Shown here: positions 114-53,436 of the stretch, piece by piece
Position numbering within the stretch: position 1 is the first letter of the stretch
How the letters are laid out: the number at the start of each line of letters is the position of its first letter
Source of the DNA: Candidatus Promineifilum breve
Lineage (GTDB): Bacteria > Chloroflexota > Anaerolineae > Promineifilales > Promineifilaceae
Assembly (NCBI RefSeq): GCF_900066015.1
Contig: NZ_LN890655.1
Coordinates: 3,884,726 to 3,948,725 of the forward strand
Length of the DNA: 64,000 nucleotides
Direction of reading: 5' to 3'
Notes under the pieces: generated by a model
Told to the model about the DNA's origin: nothing
The model's input: only the letters and a program-made list of their open reading frames with translations
Databases searched by the model: none
Made by a program: the position numbers and the translations under genes

Positions 114-1334
114 TCAGACGGGATTGGATGGATTGGTGGTCAGGACAGTCGCTAACTCGGCGCTGAGCAGTTCTTCCAGATAGGGGGTAACGCCCCAATA
201 CGTCTTGAGCGCCCGGTATTCGGCCACGAGGGCCGGAGTGGGCGGCGCGCCAGTGTGGACGGCGCGAATCATCAGGTTTTTGGGCGTGTGCTCCACGGCG
301 ACGAACTCCAGCACCTCGGCCCGGTAGCCCAGCAGGCGCAGGATGTGGGCGCGCAGGGCATCGGTCAGCGCGTCGCCCAGCCGCTCGCGCAGGATGCCAT
401 GGCGCAACACGGGGCGAAACGGCGACGGCGTCTCGGCCGCGGCCAGTTGGGCTTGCAAATGATGGTGGCAGCAGGGGGCGCTGAAGATGAGCCGGCTGCC
501 CCAACGCACGGCGCGGGCCAGGGCGTCGTCGGTGGCCGTGTCGCAGGCGTGCAGAGCCAGCACCACGTCGGGGGCCTCGGCCGGGGCATAATCGAGAATT
601 TGGCCGGCGGCGAAGGTCAGCCCCTCCCAACCCAGTTCAGCGGCCGTGGCCTGGTGGCGAGCCATCAGGAACTCCTTGGCATCGACGCCGGTCATCGCCG
701 TGGGGATGTCTTTGATCGTGGTCAGATAGTGGTAGGTGGCGAAGGTCAGCGCGGCGCTGCCGCAGCCCAGATCGACGACGCGCAACGGGCGGGTCGTGAC
801 CTTATCGATCTCGCCCGTCTCATCGATCAGGCGCAGGAACTCATTGATCTGGCGAAACTTGCGCTCCTGATTGGCGCGGATGCGGCCGTCGGCCGTCGTC
901 ACGCCGATGGCCCGCAGGAAGGGCGGCGGCGCGTCGGCCGGCAGGATGCCCGCTTTGGGCCGGTCGTGGGCCAGATCGAGGGTGATCGGCTGCCCATTCG
1001 TTCGTTTTTCGCGGTGGACGATGGGCTTGCCCTTTTTGCTGAACTGCACGCGAATCGTCTCGGTCGCGGTTTCGGCCTGGATGCTGTGGAAGGGCAAGGC
1101 CAGCAGCTCGCGCAGAGGGCCAGTTGCTTCCCCAGCGCGATAGTTCCGGGCAACTTCCTGCCGCCCATCGAAATAGACGAATTGCAGGTGGCGGCCGTCC
1201 TTGATCAGCACCGGCCGAATGGTGACTCGTGCCCAGGGCACATCCGCGCCGCGCCGCGCGCCGTGGAAGCCGGCTTCGATGAACTCCTCAGCGGCTATTG
1301 TCGCTTCCAATAGCGTTTGGTACGACTCGGACAT
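114..1334 (-). CDS. Class I SAM-dependent methyltransferase (Methyltransf_32-like)
   Basis: 406-residue soluble protein. Residues about 1-165 form an N-terminal region I do not recognise. The SAM-binding motif VVDLGCGSAALTFA follows at about residue 187, then the HACDTATD and SAPCCHHH motifs typical of the Methyltransf_32 group (METTL25/GSTCD-like proteins). The substrate is unknown; a nucleic acid or protein target is possible. It lies 24 bases downstream of obgE on the same strand and 20 bases upstream of the amidohydrolase gene, so it probably belongs to the same transcript. A 352-residue open frame on the opposite strand is a GC-driven shadow. Confidence 0.8.
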   Translation of the reverse strand: MSESYQTLLEATIAAEEFIEAGFHGARRGADVPWARVTIRPVLIKDGRHLQFVYFDGRQEVARNYRAGEATGPLRELLALPFHSIQAETATETIRVQFSKKGKPIVHREKRTNGQPITLDLAHDRPKAGILPADAPPPFLRAIGVTTADGRIRANQERKFRQINEFLRLIDETGEIDKVTTRPLRVVDLGCGSAALTFATYHYLTTIKDIPTAMTGVDAKEFLMARHQATAAELGWEGLTFAAGQILDYAPAEAPDVVLALHACDTATDDALARAVRWGSRLIFSAPCCHHHLQAQLAAAETPSPFRPVLRHGILRERLGDALTDALRAHILRLLGYRAEVLEFVAVEHTPKNLMIRAVHTGAPPTPALVAEYRALKTYWGVTPYLEELLSAELATVLTTNPSNPV

Positions 1335-42221: not shown

Positions 42222-44297
42222 TCAGACCTGGGCAATCGGCAGGCGGATGGTGAAGGTTGAACCTTTGCCGAGCGTACTCTGCACCGCAATCTGCCCATTA
42301 TAGCTACGTAGGTTCTCTTTTACCATGTACAGCCCCAGCCCGGTGCCGGCGATGCCCCGTTCCACGGCCGTCTGCGTGCGGTAGAAGCGCTTGAAGAGGT
42401 TGTTCATGGCCTCAGCCGGGATGCCGATGCCCTCGTCACTGACCTCGATGGTGACGGCTTGCTCGTCGCTCCAGGCGGCGATCTGGACGCTGCCCGACGG
42501 CGTGAACTTGATGGCGTTTTCCAGCAGATTCTTCAGCGCCATGTCGTAGACATCGAAATTGCCCATCACCGGCGGCAGGTCGGGCTGGATGCGTTGGCGG
42601 AAGAGCAGCCCCTTCTGGACGGCCCGCTCGGCCAGCGGCGGCAACGTCTCGTCAAAGATGGTATTGATCGACACCGGCTCCGGGCTGCGCTGTAGCTCGC
42701 GCGTCTCCAGCTTCGCCAGGTCGAGCATCTGGCGCACCATGCGTTGCAGGCGGTCGCTCTCCCGTTCGATGACGCCCAGGAAGCGCTCGGCTTTGTCCGG
42801 CTGGCGGGCCTTGCCCTCGCGCAACAGGCGCGAATACATCAGGATAGTCGCCAGCGGGGTGCGTAGCTCGTGGATGATGCCGTGGAAGAGGTCGTCGCGC
42901 ATCCGCTCGACTTCGCGAATCTGGGTCAGGTCGCTGAAGACGAGAATCGCCTCCGTCGCCGCGCCGTTTTCGTCGTGCACAGGCGCGCCGCTGATGAGCA
43001 CCGGCAGCGGCCGGCCGTCGGCCCGCGGGATGTCGGCCGCCAGTTGGACGCTCTCTTCGGAGGAAGTCAGAATGCGGCTGACCAGGTCGTCGATGCTGCC
43101 CTTCTTGGTTCGCACCAGGTCGCGCAGCAGGCAGCCCTCGGCCGCGCCGCTGGCGTCGATGAGCAGGGAGGTGAAGGCGCTGTTGGCGCGGGTGATGATG
43201 CCGTCGCGATTGACGGTGACCAGCCCTTCCGACATGCTGGCGAATAGGGTCTCGATGCGCCGCTTTTCGGCCAATACGTCGGCGTGGAGGTTGGCGTTCT
43301 CGATGGCCGCGGCCAGCGGCCCGCTGAGGCCCTGCATCAGTTGCACGTCGTGGTCGGTGAATTTGCCGAACTGGCGGTTGATGGCTTGCAGCACGCCGAT
43401 GGTGCGCTCATCGACCTTGAGCGGGATGCAGATCATCGAATCGGTGCGAAAGCCGGAGCGCCGGTCGACGCCGGAGAAGAAGCGCTTGTCGGAGTAGGCG
43501 TTGTTGATGATGACCGGCTCCTGATGCTCGGCCACCCAGCCGGCGATGCCCTGGCCACGCTTCAGGCGCACCGGCGGCAGGCGCTCGAACATCGGCCCCA
43601 TGAGGGTGTCCACAAACACAATATCGCCGGTTAGAGATTCGATCAGCCCGATGGACAGCGTCTCCACGTTGAGCGTGCGCCGGATGGGGCCGGTGAGCAA
43701 CTGGTAGATTTGTTGTACGTTGAGCGTGGAGCTGAGGGCGTGGCTGATGTCGGTGATAACGGCGAACTCGACGGTGCGGCGATCGACCTCCTGGCGCAGG
43801 GCGGCCCGGTCGAGGAATACGCGCATCAGATCGACGATTTCGCCCATGATGGCGAGGTCGAACGGCGGCGATTCCGGTGGGTCGATCAGGGCCAACAGAG
43901 TCGGCGGAAAGGCCTGGTAGGGGCGGTCATCCGGCACCAGCGGGGCGATGACGACCTGGCGATGCGACTCCAGCCACAGCCGGCCGGAAATGATGGCCGC
44001 CGCCGGTAGAGCCAGTTTGTCGAGGATGGCCGGCCCGGTGTAGGCCAGCAGCGGATCGAGGCCCGCTTCTTCGCGCGCCCAGCGGTGTTGGGTGGTGATG
44101 CCCGCCGGGTCGGTCAGCCACAAATCATAGCTTTTGGATTCGCTATCGGCCACCGCCACCAGCGCCCTTGACCCCAGATACTTGGCGACGTGGTAGGAAA
44201 AACTGGCGCAGACAAAATGGACGTCAAAAACGTCCTGTAAATCGCCCAAAATATCTTGCCACATCGCCAACAACCCGTGGCTGTGTTTTGCCTGCAC
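42222..44297 (-). CDS. Soluble histidine kinase with GAF and PAS domains
   Basis: 691 residues from GTG 44297, chosen because a TTGACC-18-TATGAT promoter lies 7 bases upstream and overlaps the longer ATG start at 44327. No transmembrane helix. Layout: an N-terminal sensor region (about 1-170) of unknown fold, GAF (about 180-330, QGIAGWVAEHQEPVIINNAYSDKRF), PAS (about 345-455), HisKA with FHGIIHELRTPLATILMYSRLL, and HATPase (NLLENAIKFTPSG, SDEGIGIP, GTGLGLYMVKENLRSYNG). No response regulator is adjacent. It lies 15 bases before iscS. Confidence 0.93.
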   Translation of the reverse strand: MQAKHSHGLLAMWQDILGDLQDVFDVHFVCASFSYHVAKYLGSRALVAVADSESKSYDLWLTDPAGITTQHRWAREEAGLDPLLAYTGPAILDKLALPAAAIISGRLWLESHRQVVIAPLVPDDRPYQAFPPTLLALIDPPESPPFDLAIMGEIVDLMRVFLDRAALRQEVDRRTVEFAVITDISHALSSTLNVQQIYQLLTGPIRRTLNVETLSIGLIESLTGDIVFVDTLMGPMFERLPPVRLKRGQGIAGWVAEHQEPVIINNAYSDKRFFSGVDRRSGFRTDSMICIPLKVDERTIGVLQAINRQFGKFTDHDVQLMQGLSGPLAAAIENANLHADVLAEKRRIETLFASMSEGLVTVNRDGIITRANSAFTSLLIDASGAAEGCLLRDLVRTKKGSIDDLVSRILTSSEESVQLAADIPRADGRPLPVLISGAPVHDENGAATEAILVFSDLTQIREVERMRDDLFHGIIHELRTPLATILMYSRLLREGKARQPDKAERFLGVIERESDRLQRMVRQMLDLAKLETRELQRSPEPVSINTIFDETLPPLAERAVQKGLLFRQRIQPDLPPVMGNFDVYDMALKNLLENAIKFTPSGSVQIAAWSDEQAVTIEVSDEGIGIPAEAMNNLFKRFYRTQTAVERGIAGTGLGLYMVKENLRSYNGQIAVQSTLGKGSTFTIRLPIAQV

Positions 44298-44304
44298 ACC
44301 CTGG

Positions 44305-44334
44305 ATCATAGCGGCAGTTATAGCCATCGGTCAA
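44305..44334 (-). promoter_or_regulatory. Promoter of the histidine kinase gene (predicted leaderless)
   Basis: Minus strand TTGACC (44334-44329), 18-base spacer, TATGAT (44310-44305). A GTG in frame with the kinase begins 7 bases later (44297), so the mRNA should start at the initiation codon. Confidence 0.6.
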
Positions 44335-46537: not shown

Positions 46538-46570
46538 AAAGGGGCGCGATTGATGCGCCCCTTTGCTTTT
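46538..46570 (+). terminator. Terminator after clpP
   Basis: AAAGGGGCGC (46538-46547) pairs with GCGCCCCTTT (46555-46564), with TTTTT at 46567-46571. It closes the eno-clpP transcript; sixA begins 29 bases later. Confidence 0.85.
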
Positions 46571-46592
46571 TGAAGGATGGAGATGGAACGAG

Positions 46593-47081
46593 ATGAAAAC
46601 GTTACTCCTGCTGCGCCACGCCAAATCGAGTTGGGCCGACGACCGTCTGTCTGACTTCGACCGGCCGCTGAACGACCGCGGCCGGGAAGACGCCCCCCGT
46701 ATGGGCAAGCTGCTGCGACAACACGATCTCGTCCCCGATCTGATCATCGCCTCGCCCGCCAAACGGGCGGCATCCACCGCCAAGCGCGCCGCCGAGGCCG
46801 CCGGTTACGAGGGCGAGATCCGCCACGCCGACGATCTCTATCTGGCCGAGCCAGAGGTCTACCTGGGCCTGGCTCGCCGGGCGGATGATCGGATTGCCAC
46901 CCTGATGCTGGTGGGGCACAATCCGGGTATTGAGGAGTGTGTGGGGCTGCTGGCCGGGCACGATGAGGTCATGCCCACGGGGGGGCTGGCCTGCTTCCGG
47001 CTGCCCATCGAGCGCTGGACGGATTTGCGGACGACCGGGCACTATGAACTGGTGGGTGTCTGGCGGCCGAAGGAACTCTAG
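46593..47081 (+). CDS. sixA: Phosphohistidine phosphatase SixA-type
   Basis: 162 residues from ATG 46593; the open frame extends back into the terminator. A short histidine-phosphatase domain: LLLLRHAKSSWADDRLSDFDRPLNDRG (catalytic RHAKSSW), SPAKRAASTAKRAAEAAG and VGHNPGIEECVGLL with the second His. SixA-like enzymes remove phosphate from His of HPt or phosphocarrier proteins. Target unknown here. Its last 4 bases overlap the end of the large convergent propeller-ATPase gene. Confidence 0.9.
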   Translation: MKTLLLLRHAKSSWADDRLSDFDRPLNDRGREDAPRMGKLLRQHDLVPDLIIASPAKRAASTAKRAAEAAGYEGEIRHADDLYLAEPEVYLGLARRADDRIATLMLVGHNPGIEECVGLLAGHDEVMPTGGLACFRLPIERWTDLRTTGHYELVGVWRPKEL

Positions 47082-50000
47082 CTCTCCAGATGAACGTGGA
47101 GCTTGCTCAGGCTCTTGTTCTGAACCACCCATAGCCCGACGAGGCCGATTTGCAGTTCGTATAGTGCTTTGCCCTCTTCGGTCACCTCGCGCATCACGTC
47201 CCGCTCCACCAATGCGTTGAGGGCGTGGGTCACTTCGGTCGGGTCAAGCTCGATGCTGTACGACGCCAGATAGTCGATTATCTCCTCGGGGTGGAGCGGT
47301 TCGTTGCGATCCATCAGATGGGCGGCGGCGGCCAGCACCGCCCGCTCGGCCAGATTGGCCCGCTGCCACAGATAGGCGAAATGCACTTCGCCCAGCCGCA
47401 GCATCTCATCCAGGGCCACGTTGACGTCGGAGATGGTGACGTAGCCGGTTTTTTGCTGATTGGCCTGCTTCACCAGCGTGTAACAGACCAGTTGCAGGAA
47501 GTAGGGATGCCCGGCGGTGACGCGCAAAATCTTGTCCAGCGCCAAGTCGTCATAGATCAGATGGGGGGCCACCGGTTCGCAGATCAGACGCTCGGCCGCC
47601 GCGCGGCTGAGGAAGTCGATCTTGCGATAGAGGGCGATGTTGAACAACACCGACCAGTAATCGGCGCTCATCTCCTCCAGGCGGCGCGTGCCGACAAATA
47701 CGAAGCCCAGACCGGCCGTGTGTTGCATCAGGTGGCGCATGTAGGGGAAGAACGTGCGCGGCAGGATGCCGTCGGCCACCATCGACTCGAACGCCTCGAA
47801 CTCATCGAAGACCAATAGCAGCGTCGTATCGTCCGGCAACAGCCGCCGCGCCGCCGGCAGAAATTCACGCTGCAAGACGCGCGCCGGGTCGGCCTGCCAC
47901 ACGTCCAACTCGGGCACAGTCAGGCTCATCCCCCGCCGATCCAGCGTGTCGGCGATATGCCAGGCGAACTCCTGCAATAGCGCCGCCATACCCGACGACA
48001 CGCCCAACGATTGGCAATCGATGTAGACCGGCAAGAGGTGGGGCGGCAGATAATCCTCCAGCCGCAACAGCAGCGACGTTTTGCCCGTGCGCCGCTGGCC
48101 GACGAGCATGAACACGTTGCGCTGGCTCTGGCTGCCGGCGTGCTCGGCGATGAAGCCGAATAGCTCCTCGCGGCCGAAGAACAGCGGGCTATCCTTGCGC
48201 AGCGGCGTACCCGGCAGATAGGGATTGGCGATGGGCACAAATTCGCGCACCGGCGGCAACAGGTGAACCATGTCGCCAAAGGCGGCTGTCTTGTCGTGCC
48301 GGTTGCGGTCGTCGTAGGTCAGCGATAGCCCCACTCGGAAGCGCTCTTCGGCCTGCGGCTCGATCAGGAAGCGCACTTGGCGGGCGCGGCCCGACGGCAA
48401 AAACGGGATCATCTGCGGCGCGCTTTTCACGTGGTAGGCCGGGTTTTCGTCCAACGTGGCGATGATGTTTTCGGCCGCGGCGCGCCCGGTGTTGCGAATT
48501 TCCAGGGCGACGTGGGTCTGGCCGTTGGGGGCCAGTCGCTTGGTTTTCAGCGACACTTCCAGTTCGGCCCGGCCGCGCTGCTCCTCGATCTCGGCCGACA
48601 ACAGGCCCGACCACCGCCGGGCGATGGCCCGCACCAGCGTGCGCTCCACGCTGGGCGCGAACTCGTCCAACTGGTCTTGCACCTGTCGCAGCCGCACGGC
48701 GGCCTGATTGAGATAGACCAGCCGGTCTTCGACGGCCTCGACCCGCTCGCTGTCGCGCATGTTGGTCAGCACCGGCAGCAGCGTCTCCAGGATGGGCGAC
48801 CACTCTTTGCGCTCCTCCAGAATGGTCAGCAGATGGACGAACTGCGGCCGAACCAGCACCAGTTCGGTAATCGACGGCGCTTCCAGCATGGCCTGGCACG
48901 TTTTGTAAATCGACCGGCGTTGCGGCAGGGTGTGCCAATTTTGGCCGGACGCGGCGACATCCTCCAGGGCGCGAGTGATGATCGGCAGCCCTGCCTGGGG
49001 CCGGTTGGCGAGCAGGAATAAGCCGTCGGCCAGATTGGCGACGTTGCTATCGCCCGCGCGGCGGGCACGGTTAGCCAGTTGCAATAAAAAGTCGGGCGAA
49101 CCGCTGACCGTGGCGTAGCGCTGTTCGAGCAGGGACAGGGTATTGTCCGGTGTCTGGGCCAGTTGTGAATAGAAACGACCGGCCTGGGCCGCTGGGGTTT
49201 GTGCCTGTCGCAGATAGGCCACCGCGCCGACCAACACCAGAAAGCCCAGCGACCCGGCCAGGATAGGCGTCATCCGGCTATCGGCCGCGCCCAGCACGAC
49301 ATCCGGGCCGGGCGGCGGCGTGACGTAGCCGCGATAAAAGCCGTCGCTGAACCGAAAACGGTAATCGATACGCGTCGCGCCGTCGGGGGCCTGGATGCCG
49401 GGCCACACCAGCCGGCCGTTGCCCGTGTCCAGTTGTTGTTCGCCCAGCCCAATCCAGGTACCGGCGGTTTCGTCGCGCAATTCCAGTTGCACCACGACGC
49501 TATCATTCTCCACGTCATTGATCTGTACGCCGATGGCAAATTGCTCCTGATCCGCCTCGACCTGTGGATGGGTCAACAGCGGCGGCCGGTTCTCCTCCTC
49601 GCGAAACAGGCGGATGAGGCCGTTTTGGGTGATCGCCAACAGATCGGGCGACTGCCGCGACGTGCGTTTGAGAAGGGCCAGATCAAAGGCGTTACTGGCC
49701 AGCGGTAGCTCCAGGACGCGGCGCGGGTTGTGGGTTTGAATTTGCTCGTAGAGCCACACGCCACCGTCGCGGACACCGAAGGCGGCGGTATCGGGCCGGC
49801 CGTCTTTGTCCAGGTCGTCCCAACTGGCGGCCTGAATCGGCCCGATGTCTTCCAGCACCCAGTTGATCGACGGCTGATTGTCGGTCAGGGTCAACTGTTG
49901 CAGGCCCCCGTCGGCCGTCGCCACCAGAAAGGCGGTCACATTTTCCTGGAAGGCTTCCACCGCCCCCTGCCCGGACGGCTCGATGAGATTGGGGCGGCCG

Positions 50001-52048
50001 GTCAGGGCATAGGGCCAGGCCCACTGCGCCATCTCGATCCCGCTCCGATTGAGGCCATGGACGCGGCCGTCCTGGGTGAAGACCGCCATCGCCACCGATA
50101 GCTCGCGGCCGCCGGGCTGCTGCACCGGGTGGACGGCCAGGATTTCGCTCTCGAACGAGACGAGGTCGGCGCTGACCGTGGCGGCTTCCACTTGCGTTAG
50201 GCGAATGATCCGCTGCGCGCCGCTGACGAGGATCGCGTTTGGCTCGGCCACATCGGTATTGATGAGGGTCAGGGCGCGGACGCCACCCGCCAAATCGGTC
50301 GCCTGATACTCCCAGCGCTGATTGCCGTCCAGATCGTAGGCGATCACTCGCCCGTCCTGCGTGCCGAGAATGATGGAAGATTCACCGGAGCCAAGACGGT
50401 CATCCAGAGCCAGGGCCGTCACGCGGTCGGGGATGACCGCCTCCCACAGCCGTTCGCCGGTGGCCTCGCGCAGTTCCAGCCAACTGGCGGTCGGCTCATC
50501 TTCGACTGTCTCATCCACCGGCACGCGCTGCCGACGCACGACGGCGATGCGCGGCGGCTCGCTAAGCGAATAGCGAATGCGGCCCAGAAAGGCGATGGCC
50601 TCGCCCGGCGCATTGAGCCAGTGGATGGTGCGATCGACGCCCAGACTATGCAGGCGGCCGTCGCGCGTGCCGATGATGATCTCTTCCTCGCCATCCTCAT
50701 CCAGATCGACCACCAGCGCCGCCGTCGGCGCGGCCTCCAGCGCGTATTCCCACTCCTGGATGTACTCGCTATCGCCCACGCCCAGGCCGATCAGTTGCAG
50801 CGTGGCGAAGCGCGCCAGCAGCAACTCGTGGTGATTGTCGCCGTTCACGTCGATCAGGCGGGTCAGATGGGGCAGATCGGTGTCATTGAGTTTGGCCAGT
50901 GTTTGGCCGTTGTTGCCCATCAGCAGGATGTCGGCCAGCTCGCTGGCATCCGCCTGCGATTCGAGGATGGCCGCCAGCGGCACCTGCCCGGCGGCCGTGC
51001 GTCCCCCGGCCGGCAACAGGGCCAGCACCCCGCGATCGGCGTCCTTGGCCAGATTGTTGGCCCACAGCCGTTGCCCCTGGGCGTCATAGGCGATGACGCT
51101 GCCGGCGGCCGTGCCGATGGCGATGGCCTGGGCGTTGGGCAGTTCAACGAAGGCCAGGCTGGTGATGGGGCGGTTGACGGTGCGGAACCATAGCTGATCA
51201 CCATTGGGGGCGTAGAGATCGAGCCGGCCGAAGTTGGTGCCTACGGCGATATAGCTGCCCCGGTCGCCGAACGGCGCCGCGGCCAGCCCGGTGATGCGCC
51301 GCGAAATAGCCTGCCGCCATTGCACCGTCTCCTCGTCCAGATAGAGCAGCTCGCTGAAGCGGCGCGGCGTGAACAGGCCGACGACGATTTCATCCTGGGC
51401 GTCGCCGTCAAAATCGGCGACGAGCATCTGGGGGTTGACGTTATCGGTTACGTTCTCCTGCCCGGCGAATTGCCAGATATTCTCGCCGTCGGCGCTATAG
51501 ACCAGCAGTTGGCCGGAAGCCAGCAGAAGCAGGATGTCGGCCACCCCATCGGCCCCGAAATCGTAGGACTCGACGGCCACCGGCGCGGCGGCGACCGGAA
51601 TCGTCGTCTGCCATAGCTCTTCGCCGGCGATGTCGAGCAGGGTCAGATGGTTGCTGCCGGCCAGCACGATGTCGCTCACGCGGTTGCGCCCGTCGAAGCT
51701 ATCCAGCGTGCCGATGGCCGACACCGGATCGGCGCTTTGATACGTCCATTGCTGTAGCCCATCGGCCGACAGCAAAGACAACTGGCCGTTCTCGTCGAGC
51801 ACGAGGAATTCGTCAATCCCATCGCCGTCCACATCGGCCGTCACGACGTTATCCAGCCGCCCCGAGGTGGCATATTGCCAGTAGCCCGGCGACCGGGAGT
51901 TTCCCTGGGCCAGGGCGGTTTGGCCGTGGGTCAGAGAGAGCAGAATCGCCAGGGCCACGGCGGCAACGGGCAGCCGTCCATAATGGCCGATTTGACGACC
52001 CATTTGTCGGAGGGCTGCATTGCATTGGGAGGCGCGCCGGTTGTTCAA
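47078..52048 (-). CDS. Large membrane protein: extracellular beta-propeller, one TM helix, cytosolic ATPase
   Basis: 1656 residues. Signal segment about 27-47 (VAAVALAILLSLTHGQTALA). Residues about 50-870 are propeller repeats of two kinds: FG-GAP-like Asp loops (DVDGDGIDEFLVL, DFDGDAQDEIVVG, DEDGEEEIIIGTRDG) and PQQ-like strands ending in W (LQQWTYQS, NIWQF, LWANN, RWEYQ). One TM helix near 926-945 is followed by a helical region to about 1170, a CARDB-like beta domain (1170-1270) and an ATPase with FFGREELFGFI, P-loop GQRRTGKTS (about 1318) and Walker B LLLVFDEFEAF (about 1409). A winged-helix-like C-terminus ends the chain. The gene follows an ATPase-winged-helix gene by 27 bases. Function unknown. 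Confidence 0.85.
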   Translation of the reverse strand: MNNRRASQCNAALRQMGRQIGHYGRLPVAAVALAILLSLTHGQTALAQGNSRSPGYWQYATSGRLDNVVTADVDGDGIDEFLVLDENGQLSLLSADGLQQWTYQSADPVSAIGTLDSFDGRNRVSDIVLAGSNHLTLLDIAGEELWQTTIPVAAAPVAVESYDFGADGVADILLLLASGQLLVYSADGENIWQFAGQENVTDNVNPQMLVADFDGDAQDEIVVGLFTPRRFSELLYLDEETVQWRQAISRRITGLAAAPFGDRGSYIAVGTNFGRLDLYAPNGDQLWFRTVNRPITSLAFVELPNAQAIAIGTAAGSVIAYDAQGQRLWANNLAKDADRGVLALLPAGGRTAAGQVPLAAILESQADASELADILLMGNNGQTLAKLNDTDLPHLTRLIDVNGDNHHELLLARFATLQLIGLGVGDSEYIQEWEYALEAAPTAALVVDLDEDGEEEIIIGTRDGRLHSLGVDRTIHWLNAPGEAIAFLGRIRYSLSEPPRIAVVRRQRVPVDETVEDEPTASWLELREATGERLWEAVIPDRVTALALDDRLGSGESSIILGTQDGRVIAYDLDGNQRWEYQATDLAGGVRALTLINTDVAEPNAILVSGAQRIIRLTQVEAATVSADLVSFESEILAVHPVQQPGGRELSVAMAVFTQDGRVHGLNRSGIEMAQWAWPYALTGRPNLIEPSGQGAVEAFQENVTAFLVATADGGLQQLTLTDNQPSINWVLEDIGPIQAASWDDLDKDGRPDTAAFGVRDGGVWLYEQIQTHNPRRVLELPLASNAFDLALLKRTSRQSPDLLAITQNGLIRLFREEENRPPLLTHPQVEADQEQFAIGVQINDVENDSVVVQLELRDETAGTWIGLGEQQLDTGNGRLVWPGIQAPDGATRIDYRFRFSDGFYRGYVTPPPGPDVVLGAADSRMTPILAGSLGFLVLVGAVAYLRQAQTPAAQAGRFYSQLAQTPDNTLSLLEQRYATVSGSPDFLLQLANRARRAGDSNVANLADGLFLLANRPQAGLPIITRALEDVAASGQNWHTLPQRRSIYKTCQAMLEAPSITELVLVRPQFVHLLTILEERKEWSPILETLLPVLTNMRDSERVEAVEDRLVYLNQAAVRLRQVQDQLDEFAPSVERTLVRAIARRWSGLLSAEIEEQRGRAELEVSLKTKRLAPNGQTHVALEIRNTGRAAAENIIATLDENPAYHVKSAPQMIPFLPSGRARQVRFLIEPQAEERFRVGLSLTYDDRNRHDKTAAFGDMVHLLPPVREFVPIANPYLPGTPLRKDSPLFFGREELFGFIAEHAGSQSQRNVFMLVGQRRTGKTSLLLRLEDYLPPHLLPVYIDCQSLGVSSGMAALLQEFAWHIADTLDRRGMSLTVPELDVWQADPARVLQREFLPAARRLLPDDTTLLLVFDEFEAFESMVADGILPRTFFPYMRHLMQHTAGLGFVFVGTRRLEEMSADYWSVLFNIALYRKIDFLSRAAAERLICEPVAPHLIYDDLALDKILRVTAGHPYFLQLVCYTLVKQANQQKTGYVTISDVNVALDEMLRLGEVHFAYLWQRANLAERAVLAAAAHLMDRNEPLHPEEIIDYLASYSIELDPTEVTHALNALVERDVMREVTEEGKALYELQIGLVGLWVVQNKSLSKLHVHLES

Positions 52049-52075
52049 AGTTAGTGGGGGCCGCCGGCCGGGCGG

Positions 52076-53398
52076 TTACTCTTCGGGCGGGCGCAAGGCG
52101 TAGCCCACGCCGCGCTCGCTGATGATCCAGTTGCCAAACGGATCGACGGCCCGCCGCAGACGCTTGATCAGCGTCTTGAGCCGGTCGGGGTCGTCTACCA
52201 ATACATCCCCCCACACCGCCATTTCCAGGTCTTCGCCACGCACGACCTGATCGGGGTGGCGGCACAGCTGGACCAGGATGTTGAATTGCGAGGTGGTCAG
52301 GTTAAGCTCCTGGCCGTTGCCCCACACCTGGTGGCGCTGATCATCGATGACAAACGGCCCGGCCTGCACCAGTCCGTCCACGGCTTGACGGCGCACGAAG
52401 CGGCGCAAGATCTCGCTGCTGTACCGGTAGACGCCGTCAACCCGTTGCAACAGGCATTGCTGTTCCAGCTGGCGCAGGCTATCGATCGGGCCGTCGGCGA
52501 TAGCCAGCACGTGTTGCTCCTCGGGGGTAAGGTTTTGCCACAGATAGCCCAGATGGGACTCGGCTTCGACCTCAATCGGGCTATCGAGGACGTGGAAATC
52601 ACTCTCGGCCGTCCCCGCGCCCAACTCGCCGGTGATCAGCGCCTGGACGGCATGATAGCCGCCGATGTGGAGAAAGAACGGATGATGCCCCACCAGCCGG
52701 ATCAGATAATGAATCAACGCCGGCGGGAAGGTGACCGTCGTGCGGGCCAGCCGCTGCTGAAAAAGGTCAAGGGCCTCGGCCTCATCGAAAAGCCCCAGCG
52801 GCAACGTGACGAAGATATTGAAGAAAGGGGAGCTAAGGACAGCCTCTTCGGCGGTGATGTCGAAGAGCGGCCGTTGGCTGGCCGTCAGATAGGCCAGGCC
52901 ATACTTGGTCGTCAGGCCGCGCAGCCGGGCGAAGAAGTAGGGTGTCAGGTGCTGGTTGGCGGCCAGCAATTCGAACTCATCGAGCAGCACGACGACGCCC
53001 GTGCCCTGTTGATAGACCTGCGCCAGGGCGCGGTCGAGGGCGCGGTAGGTTCCCGGCTCGGCGGCCGTGTCCAGGTTCAGCCCGGCCTGCGAAGCCGCGT
53101 CGAGCAGCCCGGCATACAGCAATTCATAAACTTCTTCGGGCGGCGAGCCGGCCAACTCCTGGCAATCGAGCAGGACGAAGAGGGCCTGGGGCGGATTCAG
53201 GCCAAACGATTCGCGCACCGCGGGGTGGCTCAGATGCAACAGGAGCGAACTCTTGCCGATGCGCCGCGGCCCGATGAGCGATACGCTCTGGCCGTTGCGC
53301 AACAGGCCCAACATCTGGCTCAATTCGGCCGCGCGGCCGACGAAATCCTCGACACGCCGGATGGCCCCACGATGAAAGAACGGATTATCTACACCCAT
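52076..53398 (-). CDS. ATPase with C-terminal OmpR-type DNA-binding domain
   Basis: 440 residues. N-terminus NPFFHRGAIRRVEDFVGRAAELSQMLGLLRNGQ leads into an ATPase with P-loop GPRRIGKSS (about 43-51), a long ATPase domain with VVLLDEFELLAANQHL as Walker B, and a helical part to about 330. The last 100 residues are a winged helix of the Trans_reg_C/OmpR type (QFNILVQLCRHPDQVVRGEDLEMAVWGD, RLKTLIKRLRRAVDPFGNWIISERGVGYAL). No receiver domain is present. It is probably a regulator whose DNA binding is governed by ATP and ligand binding. It is the first gene of a two-gene unit with the large propeller-ATPase. Confidence 0.85.
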   Translation of the reverse strand: MGVDNPFFHRGAIRRVEDFVGRAAELSQMLGLLRNGQSVSLIGPRRIGKSSLLLHLSHPAVRESFGLNPPQALFVLLDCQELAGSPPEEVYELLYAGLLDAASQAGLNLDTAAEPGTYRALDRALAQVYQQGTGVVVLLDEFELLAANQHLTPYFFARLRGLTTKYGLAYLTASQRPLFDITAEEAVLSSPFFNIFVTLPLGLFDEAEALDLFQQRLARTTVTFPPALIHYLIRLVGHHPFFLHIGGYHAVQALITGELGAGTAESDFHVLDSPIEVEAESHLGYLWQNLTPEEQHVLAIADGPIDSLRQLEQQCLLQRVDGVYRYSSEILRRFVRRQAVDGLVQAGPFVIDDQRHQVWGNGQELNLTTSQFNILVQLCRHPDQVVRGEDLEMAVWGDVLVDDPDRLKTLIKRLRRAVDPFGNWIISERGVGYALRPPEE

Positions 53399-53406
53399 AT
53401 CCCTCT

Positions 53407-53436
53407 ATTGTAATGCCGATGGGGTTGAAATGGTAA
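53407..53436 (-). promoter_or_regulatory. Possible promoter of the two-ATPase unit (predicted leaderless)
   Basis: Minus strand TTACCA (53436-53431), 18-base spacer, TACAAT (53412-53407). The ATG at 53398 is 8 bases downstream. The -35 box is weak. Confidence 0.4.

Follow-up and report, generated by a model that had tools for sequence, protein, structure and literature searches.

A paired transmembrane propeller STAND ATPase and PhoB-type STAND regulator in Candidatus Promineifilum breve: a candidate two-protein signalling unit

The locus and its two genes

The 64,000-nucleotide stretch of Candidatus Promineifilum breve DNA analysed here (contig NZ_LN890655.1, positions 3,884,726 to 3,948,725; hereafter, the window) carries on its reverse strand two adjacent genes, each of which encodes a STAND ATPase. 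Gene 1 encodes a protein with a PhoB-type DNA-binding domain, and gene 2 encodes a transmembrane (TM) protein with a large propeller ectodomain; the two probably form one signalling unit, in which gene 2 supplies the membrane sensor and gene 1 the executor. Both open reading frames were confirmed exactly as an earlier note on this DNA, made from the sequence alone, had described them: on the same strand and 27 bases apart. The closest named genomes are metagenome-assembled genomes (MAGs) of Promineifilum, a genus within the Chloroflexota family Promineifilaceae. Relatives within the genus share the flanking genes for enolase, ClpP, SixA, an RNase H-like protein and TrmFO, and the locus is thus chromosomal and vertically inherited. 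Proteins of the gene 1 and gene 2 types are called here small and big proteins, respectively, and relatives are cited by locus number (L).

The earlier note had read gene 1 as a P-loop ATPase joined to an OmpR-type winged helix, and Pfam agrees with both parts: nSTAND2 is matched at residues 41-251 (E 3.7e-14; 53 bits, cut-off 24) and Trans_reg_C at residues 362-435 (E 4.7e-14; 52.7 bits, cut-off 26.2). Moreover, the winged helix-turn-helix (wHTH) domain matches solved PhoB structures (E 1.7e-12), and its recognition-helix region, DPDRLKTLIKRLRR, is almost invariant across the family. The -10 element of a putative promoter, which is kept in the genus, sits 8 nt ahead of the ATG, so the transcript of gene 1 would be near-leaderless. 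The upstream-region alignment that shows this conserved promoter-like element revealed no convincing operator for the winged helix.

In gene 2, Pfam detects FG-GAP_3/PQQ_2 repeats and AAA_22 (residues 1308-1460, E 2.7e-9). An AlphaFold2 (AF2) model of residues 41-1240, built on an alignment of 44 homologues, reached a predicted local distance difference test score (pLDDT) of 83.7. The approximately 820 residues of FG-GAP/PQQ-like repeats reported in the earlier note are present; however, they are predicted to fold into two tandem eight-bladed propellers rather than one undefined array. The propeller models match solved and designed eight-bladed proteins (Z approx. 27-31, over model residues 10..383 and 390..777), with the blade number of both resting on the AF2 prediction rather than on a solved structure. 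VIA-align/Foldseek matches of the ectodomain are generic propellers, informative at the level of fold, and name no ligand. The model also contains the one TM helix claimed previously. As for the proposed CARDB-like domain, the match in gene 2 itself falls below the Pfam threshold (E=0.12), yet homologue L185 passes the cut-off (E 5e-5) and a beta-sandwich is modelled at this place. The start of gene 2 is uncertain, since an ATG immediately ahead of the signal peptide is as plausible as the upstream TTG; neither is preceded by a clear Shine-Dalgarno sequence. An AF2 model of the cytosolic part made without an alignment reached a pLDDT of 40 and was discarded.

Table 1. Features of the gene pair (all on the - strand; positions are those of the window)
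Feature	Position	Strand	Residues	Basis or remark
Putative sigma70-like promoter, TTACCA-N18-TACAAT	53407..53436	-		Aligned upstream regions of window, L139-L142, L178; consensus match only
Gene 1, small protein (proposed executor): nSTAND2 ATPase followed by PhoB/OmpR-type winged helix	52076..53398	-	440 aa	
Gene 1 STAND ATPase module with own C-terminal winged-helix part	52394..53398	-	1-335	Pfam nSTAND2; hhalign
Gene 1 Walker A, GPRRIGKS	53249..53272	-	43-50	
Gene 1 Walker B, VVVLLDEF	52973..52996	-	135-142	
Gene 1 output domain, Trans_reg_C winged helix	52094..52315	-	362-435	Pfam; PhoB structures
Gene 2, big protein (proposed sensor): STAND ATPase with TM helix and twin propellers	47078..52048	-	1656 aa from TTG	Alternative ATG at 52003
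Signal peptide-like segment, ending ..TALAQ	51905..52003	-	~16-48	Sequence
Propeller 1, 32 strands (8 blades)	50780..51880	-	57-423	AF2; resembles 8-bladed propellers including BamB, Sqt1
Propeller 2, 31 strands (8 blades)	49598..50761	-	430-817	AF2; resembles 8-bladed Ika8/Tako8 designs, BamB, WDR41
Ig-like juxtamembrane domain	49322..49579	-	824-909	AF2
Single TM helix	49202..49261	-	~930-949	AF2; hydropathy shows equivalent TM in nearly all orthologues
Cytosolic alpha-solenoid	48575..49195	-	952-1158	AF2
CARDB-like beta-sandwich linker	48356..48562	-	1163-1231	AF2; CARDB in homologue L185
STAND ATPase module of gene 2 and its intrinsic winged helix	47081..48241	-	1270-1656	AAA_22; alignment; hhalign
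Gene 2 Walker A, GQRRTGKT	48077..48100	-	1317-1324	
Gene 2 Walker B, LLLVFDEF	47798..47821	-	1410-1417	

Homology of the two ATPases

Aligned by hhalign over 325 columns, the ATPases of genes 1 and 2 prove to be homologous (E=2e-44); neither a lack of conserved pairing nor an assignment to unrelated families, the outcomes that the earlier note had named as refuting its reading, was observed. Both carry the STAND hallmarks, namely a P-loop, the acidic pair of Walker B, a GxP-type motif (GHHP/AGHP) and a C-terminal winged helix. In particular, an arginine following Walker B is invariant in both alignments, and hhalign pairs the two residues (R160 of gene 1 and R1438 of gene 2). The winged-helix-like end of gene 2 had been recognized correctly; nevertheless, it aligns with the end of the gene 1 ATPase module and is therefore the STAND-intrinsic winged helix and not a second DNA-binding domain. 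Despite this clear profile homology, gene 2 remains below the nSTAND2 threshold both in the Pfam scan and in a family search of its own genome, and related big proteins match nSTAND2 weakly (L110, E 0.0046; L212, E 2e-4). Walker A is intact in both window ATPases, in 122 of 126 small proteins and, by pattern, in 110 of 111 big ones; such motifs indicate a capacity for ATP binding, not activity. As the earlier note held, the unit lacks a histidine kinase and a receiver: neither HisKA/HATPase sensor nor receiver domains were matched by Pfam in either protein.

Conservation of the pairing

Adjacency across relatives, which the earlier note had proposed as a check, is conserved throughout the family. 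Among 52 Promineifilaceae genomes, orthologues of gene 1 and gene 2 were found in 48 and 49, respectively, nearly always in one copy each, and the genomes that lack one of them are mostly incomplete or fragmented assemblies. When contigs were chosen by the gene 2 ATPase alone, blind to its neighbour, a gene 1-type ATPase adjoined gene 2 in 59 of 68 testable loci. All loci together give 88 adjacent cases out of 97, a count that, like the former, pools close relatives; the majority of pairs lie on the same strand and overlap or are separated by at most 100 bp. Five of the nine unpaired big genes (L149, L150, L153, L172 and L179) belong to close-family genomes that retain an orthologous gene 1 elsewhere (53-71% identity), and three others (L187, L203, L205) have a gene 1-type ATPase on the same contig at a distance of 2.9 to approx. 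6 kb. For the ninth, the lone big gene of L180 (probably from the 83%-complete MAG G450), which makes up six close-family cases with the first five, no gene 1 was seen in the genome.

The two ATPases also diverge together, with a correlation between their distances of Mantel r=0.935 (94 pairs, 0 of 2000 permutations). Correction for the adjacent SixA gene leaves a partial r of 0.70 (22 loci), which may be inflated because SixA is a short protein and the sole control. This residual correlation supports the pairing without proving it.

Exchange of inputs and outputs

Pairs with other sensors and other outputs occur throughout the Chloroflexota, and one was found in a MAG of the Thermoplasmata; no second case was found among 12 genomes of that class. 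Throughout these relatives, the ATPase pair is the constant part and both ends differ. The small proteins carry an OmpR-type wHTH, a LuxR helix-turn-helix (HTH; L122) or, in most of the pairs whose sensor has several TM helices, a Ser/Thr kinase with HRD and DFG motifs. Further outputs are CHAT (L209), BTAD (L233), DUF835 (L250) and a weak sigma-r4-like HTH (L116), and EAD7 is found on the small protein of L234, near which no big gene was detected. Inputs of the big proteins include twin propellers with one TM helix, approximately seven TM helices with a GAF module, HEAT with NACHT, and a beta-helix in the archaeal MAG. In addition, some big proteins begin with the ATPase and continue through one TM helix into an extracytoplasmic C-terminal region, e.g., TPR with lectin or PD40. 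The big protein of one pair (L231 2689-8263) bears TCAD9 (ternary-complex) and NUDIX, which ties the module to predicted conflict systems.

Where a TM helix is present, the ATPase is predicted to lie inside and the sensor outside with few exceptions, even under the inverted domain order; TM calls in most relatives derive from hydropathy. This is the arrangement that the earlier note had envisaged, with a sensor outside the cell and an ATPase in the cytosol. Moreover, the multi-TM sensor with a GAF module pairs with wHTH partners as well as kinase partners, and in L184, L189 and L202 a single sensor gene stands between a wHTH small gene and a kinase small gene. Such mixing of sensors and outputs is the strongest indication that the link between them runs through the two ATPases.

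Several loci depart from the simple two-gene plan. A big gene flanked by two small genes, with wHTH on one side and a kinase or no output domain on the other, occurs in L184, L189, L202 and L207, a layout that might provide a branched output. In the Thermoplasmata locus (L260 3388-18712), a gene for a 1951-aa FG-GAP single-TM protein sits between that of a 2297-aa big protein with a beta-helix ectodomain and a divergent small gene of the nSTAND2-DUF835 type; MAG genomes such as this one could be misbinned, although its contig also bears the purD- and pyrE-like genes described below.

Relation to known systems

The pair resembles several known systems in part. Like histidine kinase/response regulator systems, it places a membrane sensor gene next to the gene of a PhoB-type DNA-binding regulator; however, it has neither the kinase nor the receiver, and the signal would move between two ATPases. 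ToxR/TcpP-type regulators likewise join extracellular sensing to an OmpR-type wHTH without a phosphorelay, but in them the DNA-binding domain belongs to the membrane protein, whereas here it is attached to the soluble ATPase partner. In MalT, AfsR/SARP, GutR and LAL regulators, a STAND switch couples the sensor to an HTH output within a single chain. The same switch stands between sensor and output in the window, although the two are split over two proteins with an ATPase in each and the sensor spans the membrane. Sensor and executor STANDs encoded by separate genes are known from NAIP-NLRC4 and from paired plant nucleotide-binding leucine-rich repeat receptors (NLRs). This likeness is an analogy of working only: the NLR pairs belong to other STAND clades, serve cytosolic immunity and lack a transmembrane sensor, and we claim homology at the STAND level alone.

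The closest published arrangement is a two-gene nSTAND2 operon with a STAND NTPase core in both proteins, predicted to be a counter-invader system (Kaur, Iyer, Burroughs, Aravind 2021, eLife 10:e70394, PMC8195603, Fig. 6C); in the open-access literature on nSTAND2, no other relevant paper was found. As described there (PMC8195603), both proteins have a conserved arginine finger, the effector-bearing NTPase is eroded, GT4 and HEPN are the most common effectors, and the operon is mobile. The window pair shares with it the two adjacent genes, the STAND core in each, the nSTAND2 family (gene 1), a conserved arginine in both proteins and a variable output domain on one of them. In contrast to the published operon, the effector-bearing NTPase is not eroded here (its Walker A is intact in gene 1 as in nearly all small proteins), the partner has a transmembrane sensor, the outputs include transcription factors and kinases, and the locus is vertical, single-copy and near-universal in the family rather than mobile. 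No GT4 or HEPN domain was detected among the Pfam-scanned relatives, including the tails of their small proteins, and the output in the window is Trans_reg_C. We therefore file the pair as paired nSTAND-type ATPases outside the counter-invader operon, a separation drawn from the paper's description.

Proposed signalling mechanism and alternative explanations

It is proposed that a ligand, probably at the cell surface or extracellular, would change the ectodomain of gene 2, and that the solenoid/CARDB stalk would in turn free the membrane-bound ATPase from a closed, nucleotide-bound state. The gene 2 ATPase would then recruit and open the homologous ATPase of gene 1 to give a mixed oligomer, as NAIP nucleates NLRC4. 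Finally, clustering would switch on the attached output, which would be cooperative DNA binding in the window and the activity of an HTH, kinase or protease domain in relatives. We infer these steps, together with the dependence on ATP, the direction of regulation, the ligand and the DNA site. A nucleating sensor STAND is the simplest model that employs all of the constant parts, and the HTH, kinase and CHAT-type outputs are compatible with activation by clustering.

Several points weigh against this proposal. The contact between the two ATPases is presumed by it, the Walker motifs speak for nucleotide binding alone, and the partial correlation has the weak control described above. Furthermore, membrane sensing is not universal, because no TM helix is predicted in the Ktedonobacteria-type loci (L116, L117, L120, L136, L216) or in the HEAT-type loci (L126, L128). 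Finally, a solo subfamily of approximately 470-aa wHTH-nSTAND2 proteins (L217-L230), common in the class, stands alone, which indicates that such ATPases can function without a big partner; these loci had been considered as further pairs and were rejected, as no big ATPase lies nearby.

The main rival to nucleation is membrane sequestration, in which gene 2 would tether gene 1 through the related ATPase folds and free it on a signal, in the manner of an anti-sigma factor, and would thus be an inhibitor rather than a nucleator. The same data on pairing, topology and co-divergence fit this explanation, as do the usual ratio of one small protein per big one and the mostly co-oriented genes. However, the kinase, CHAT and HTH outputs belong to classes that are typically activated by clustering, and Walker A, which simple sequestration does not need, is kept in both ATPases. 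On balance, sequestration seems unlikely, although it deserves serious attention.

Less probable still is a role in conflict with invaders such as phages, as predicted for the nSTAND2 two-gene type (Kaur et al. 2021). Such a role would suit the membership of gene 1 in nSTAND2, given that the paper describes a two-gene layout with a STAND NTPase and a conserved arginine finger in each protein, and conflict-type domains do occur in some relatives (EAD7 in L234, TCAD9 in L231, CHAT in L209). Nevertheless, both P-loops are intact where the published effector-bearing one is eroded, the output is a transcription factor rather than GT4 or HEPN, and the single-copy, near-universal locus with its conserved neighbours does not behave as a mobile element. 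No meaningful PADLOC match was obtained, the best being a partial one to PDC-S27 (E 0.0018, gene 1 residues 18-147), and tblastn against 72,556 plasmids matched the wHTH region only, as found in response regulators. PD-T4-6 matches of a kinase relative in PADLOC were dismissed, since any Ser/Thr kinase would match. The least probable explanation is that gene 1 works as a STAND regulator on its own, as MalT or AfsR do, beside a separate envelope protein. It draws on the solo subfamily and on the five close-family genomes in which the genes are apart, but those genomes still hold both genes, pairs are found again in unrelated layouts that have other domains, and the divergence correlates beyond the linked control gene.

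Control of bacterial genes across the membrane is mostly attributed to histidine kinases, tethered regulators, Ser/Thr kinases and anti-sigma factors. In the nucleation model, the sensor ATPase appears to signal to an output ATPase, and either end can be exchanged. If this is true, it adds another route for transmembrane signals, gives paired STAND ATPases a regulatory, non-immune setting, and would assign a function to a family of proteins that bear large propeller ectodomains and are present in nearly every genome of the Promineifilaceae, to which Promineifilum and other filamentous Chloroflexota belong. A way in which NLR-like division into sensor and executor can emerge outside immunity is suggested as well. 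A broader claim, for and against which we see about equal grounds, is that the pair represents transmembrane signalling by two proteins as a general class, where homologous STAND ATPases on sensor and output replace the kinase-receiver phosphorelay. Inputs and outputs would then be mixed freely across Chloroflexota, the scheme would occur once or more in Archaea, and it would be a prokaryotic parallel, in logic, of sensor/executor NLR pairs.

Neighbouring genes and further loci

A SixA-like histidine phosphatase gene (46563-47081, +) converges on gene 2 with a 4-base overlap and neighbours the pair in approximately 20 relatives. A GAF-histidine kinase gene (42222-44327, -) also retains its place near the enolase-ClpP-SixA-pair region within the genus. 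A second adjacent ATPase pair (L138 8288-10986; G000:C1:814287-816985) is located in the same genome and consists of a 532-aa small protein with a C-terminal tail and a 367-aa sensor-less big protein. Expansion of the module is seen at L129 3112-18677 (G287:C442), where eight small- and big-type ATPase genes follow one another on one strand. On the Thermoplasmata contig (L260), purD- and pyrE-like genes, identified from their translations only, lie beside the pair.

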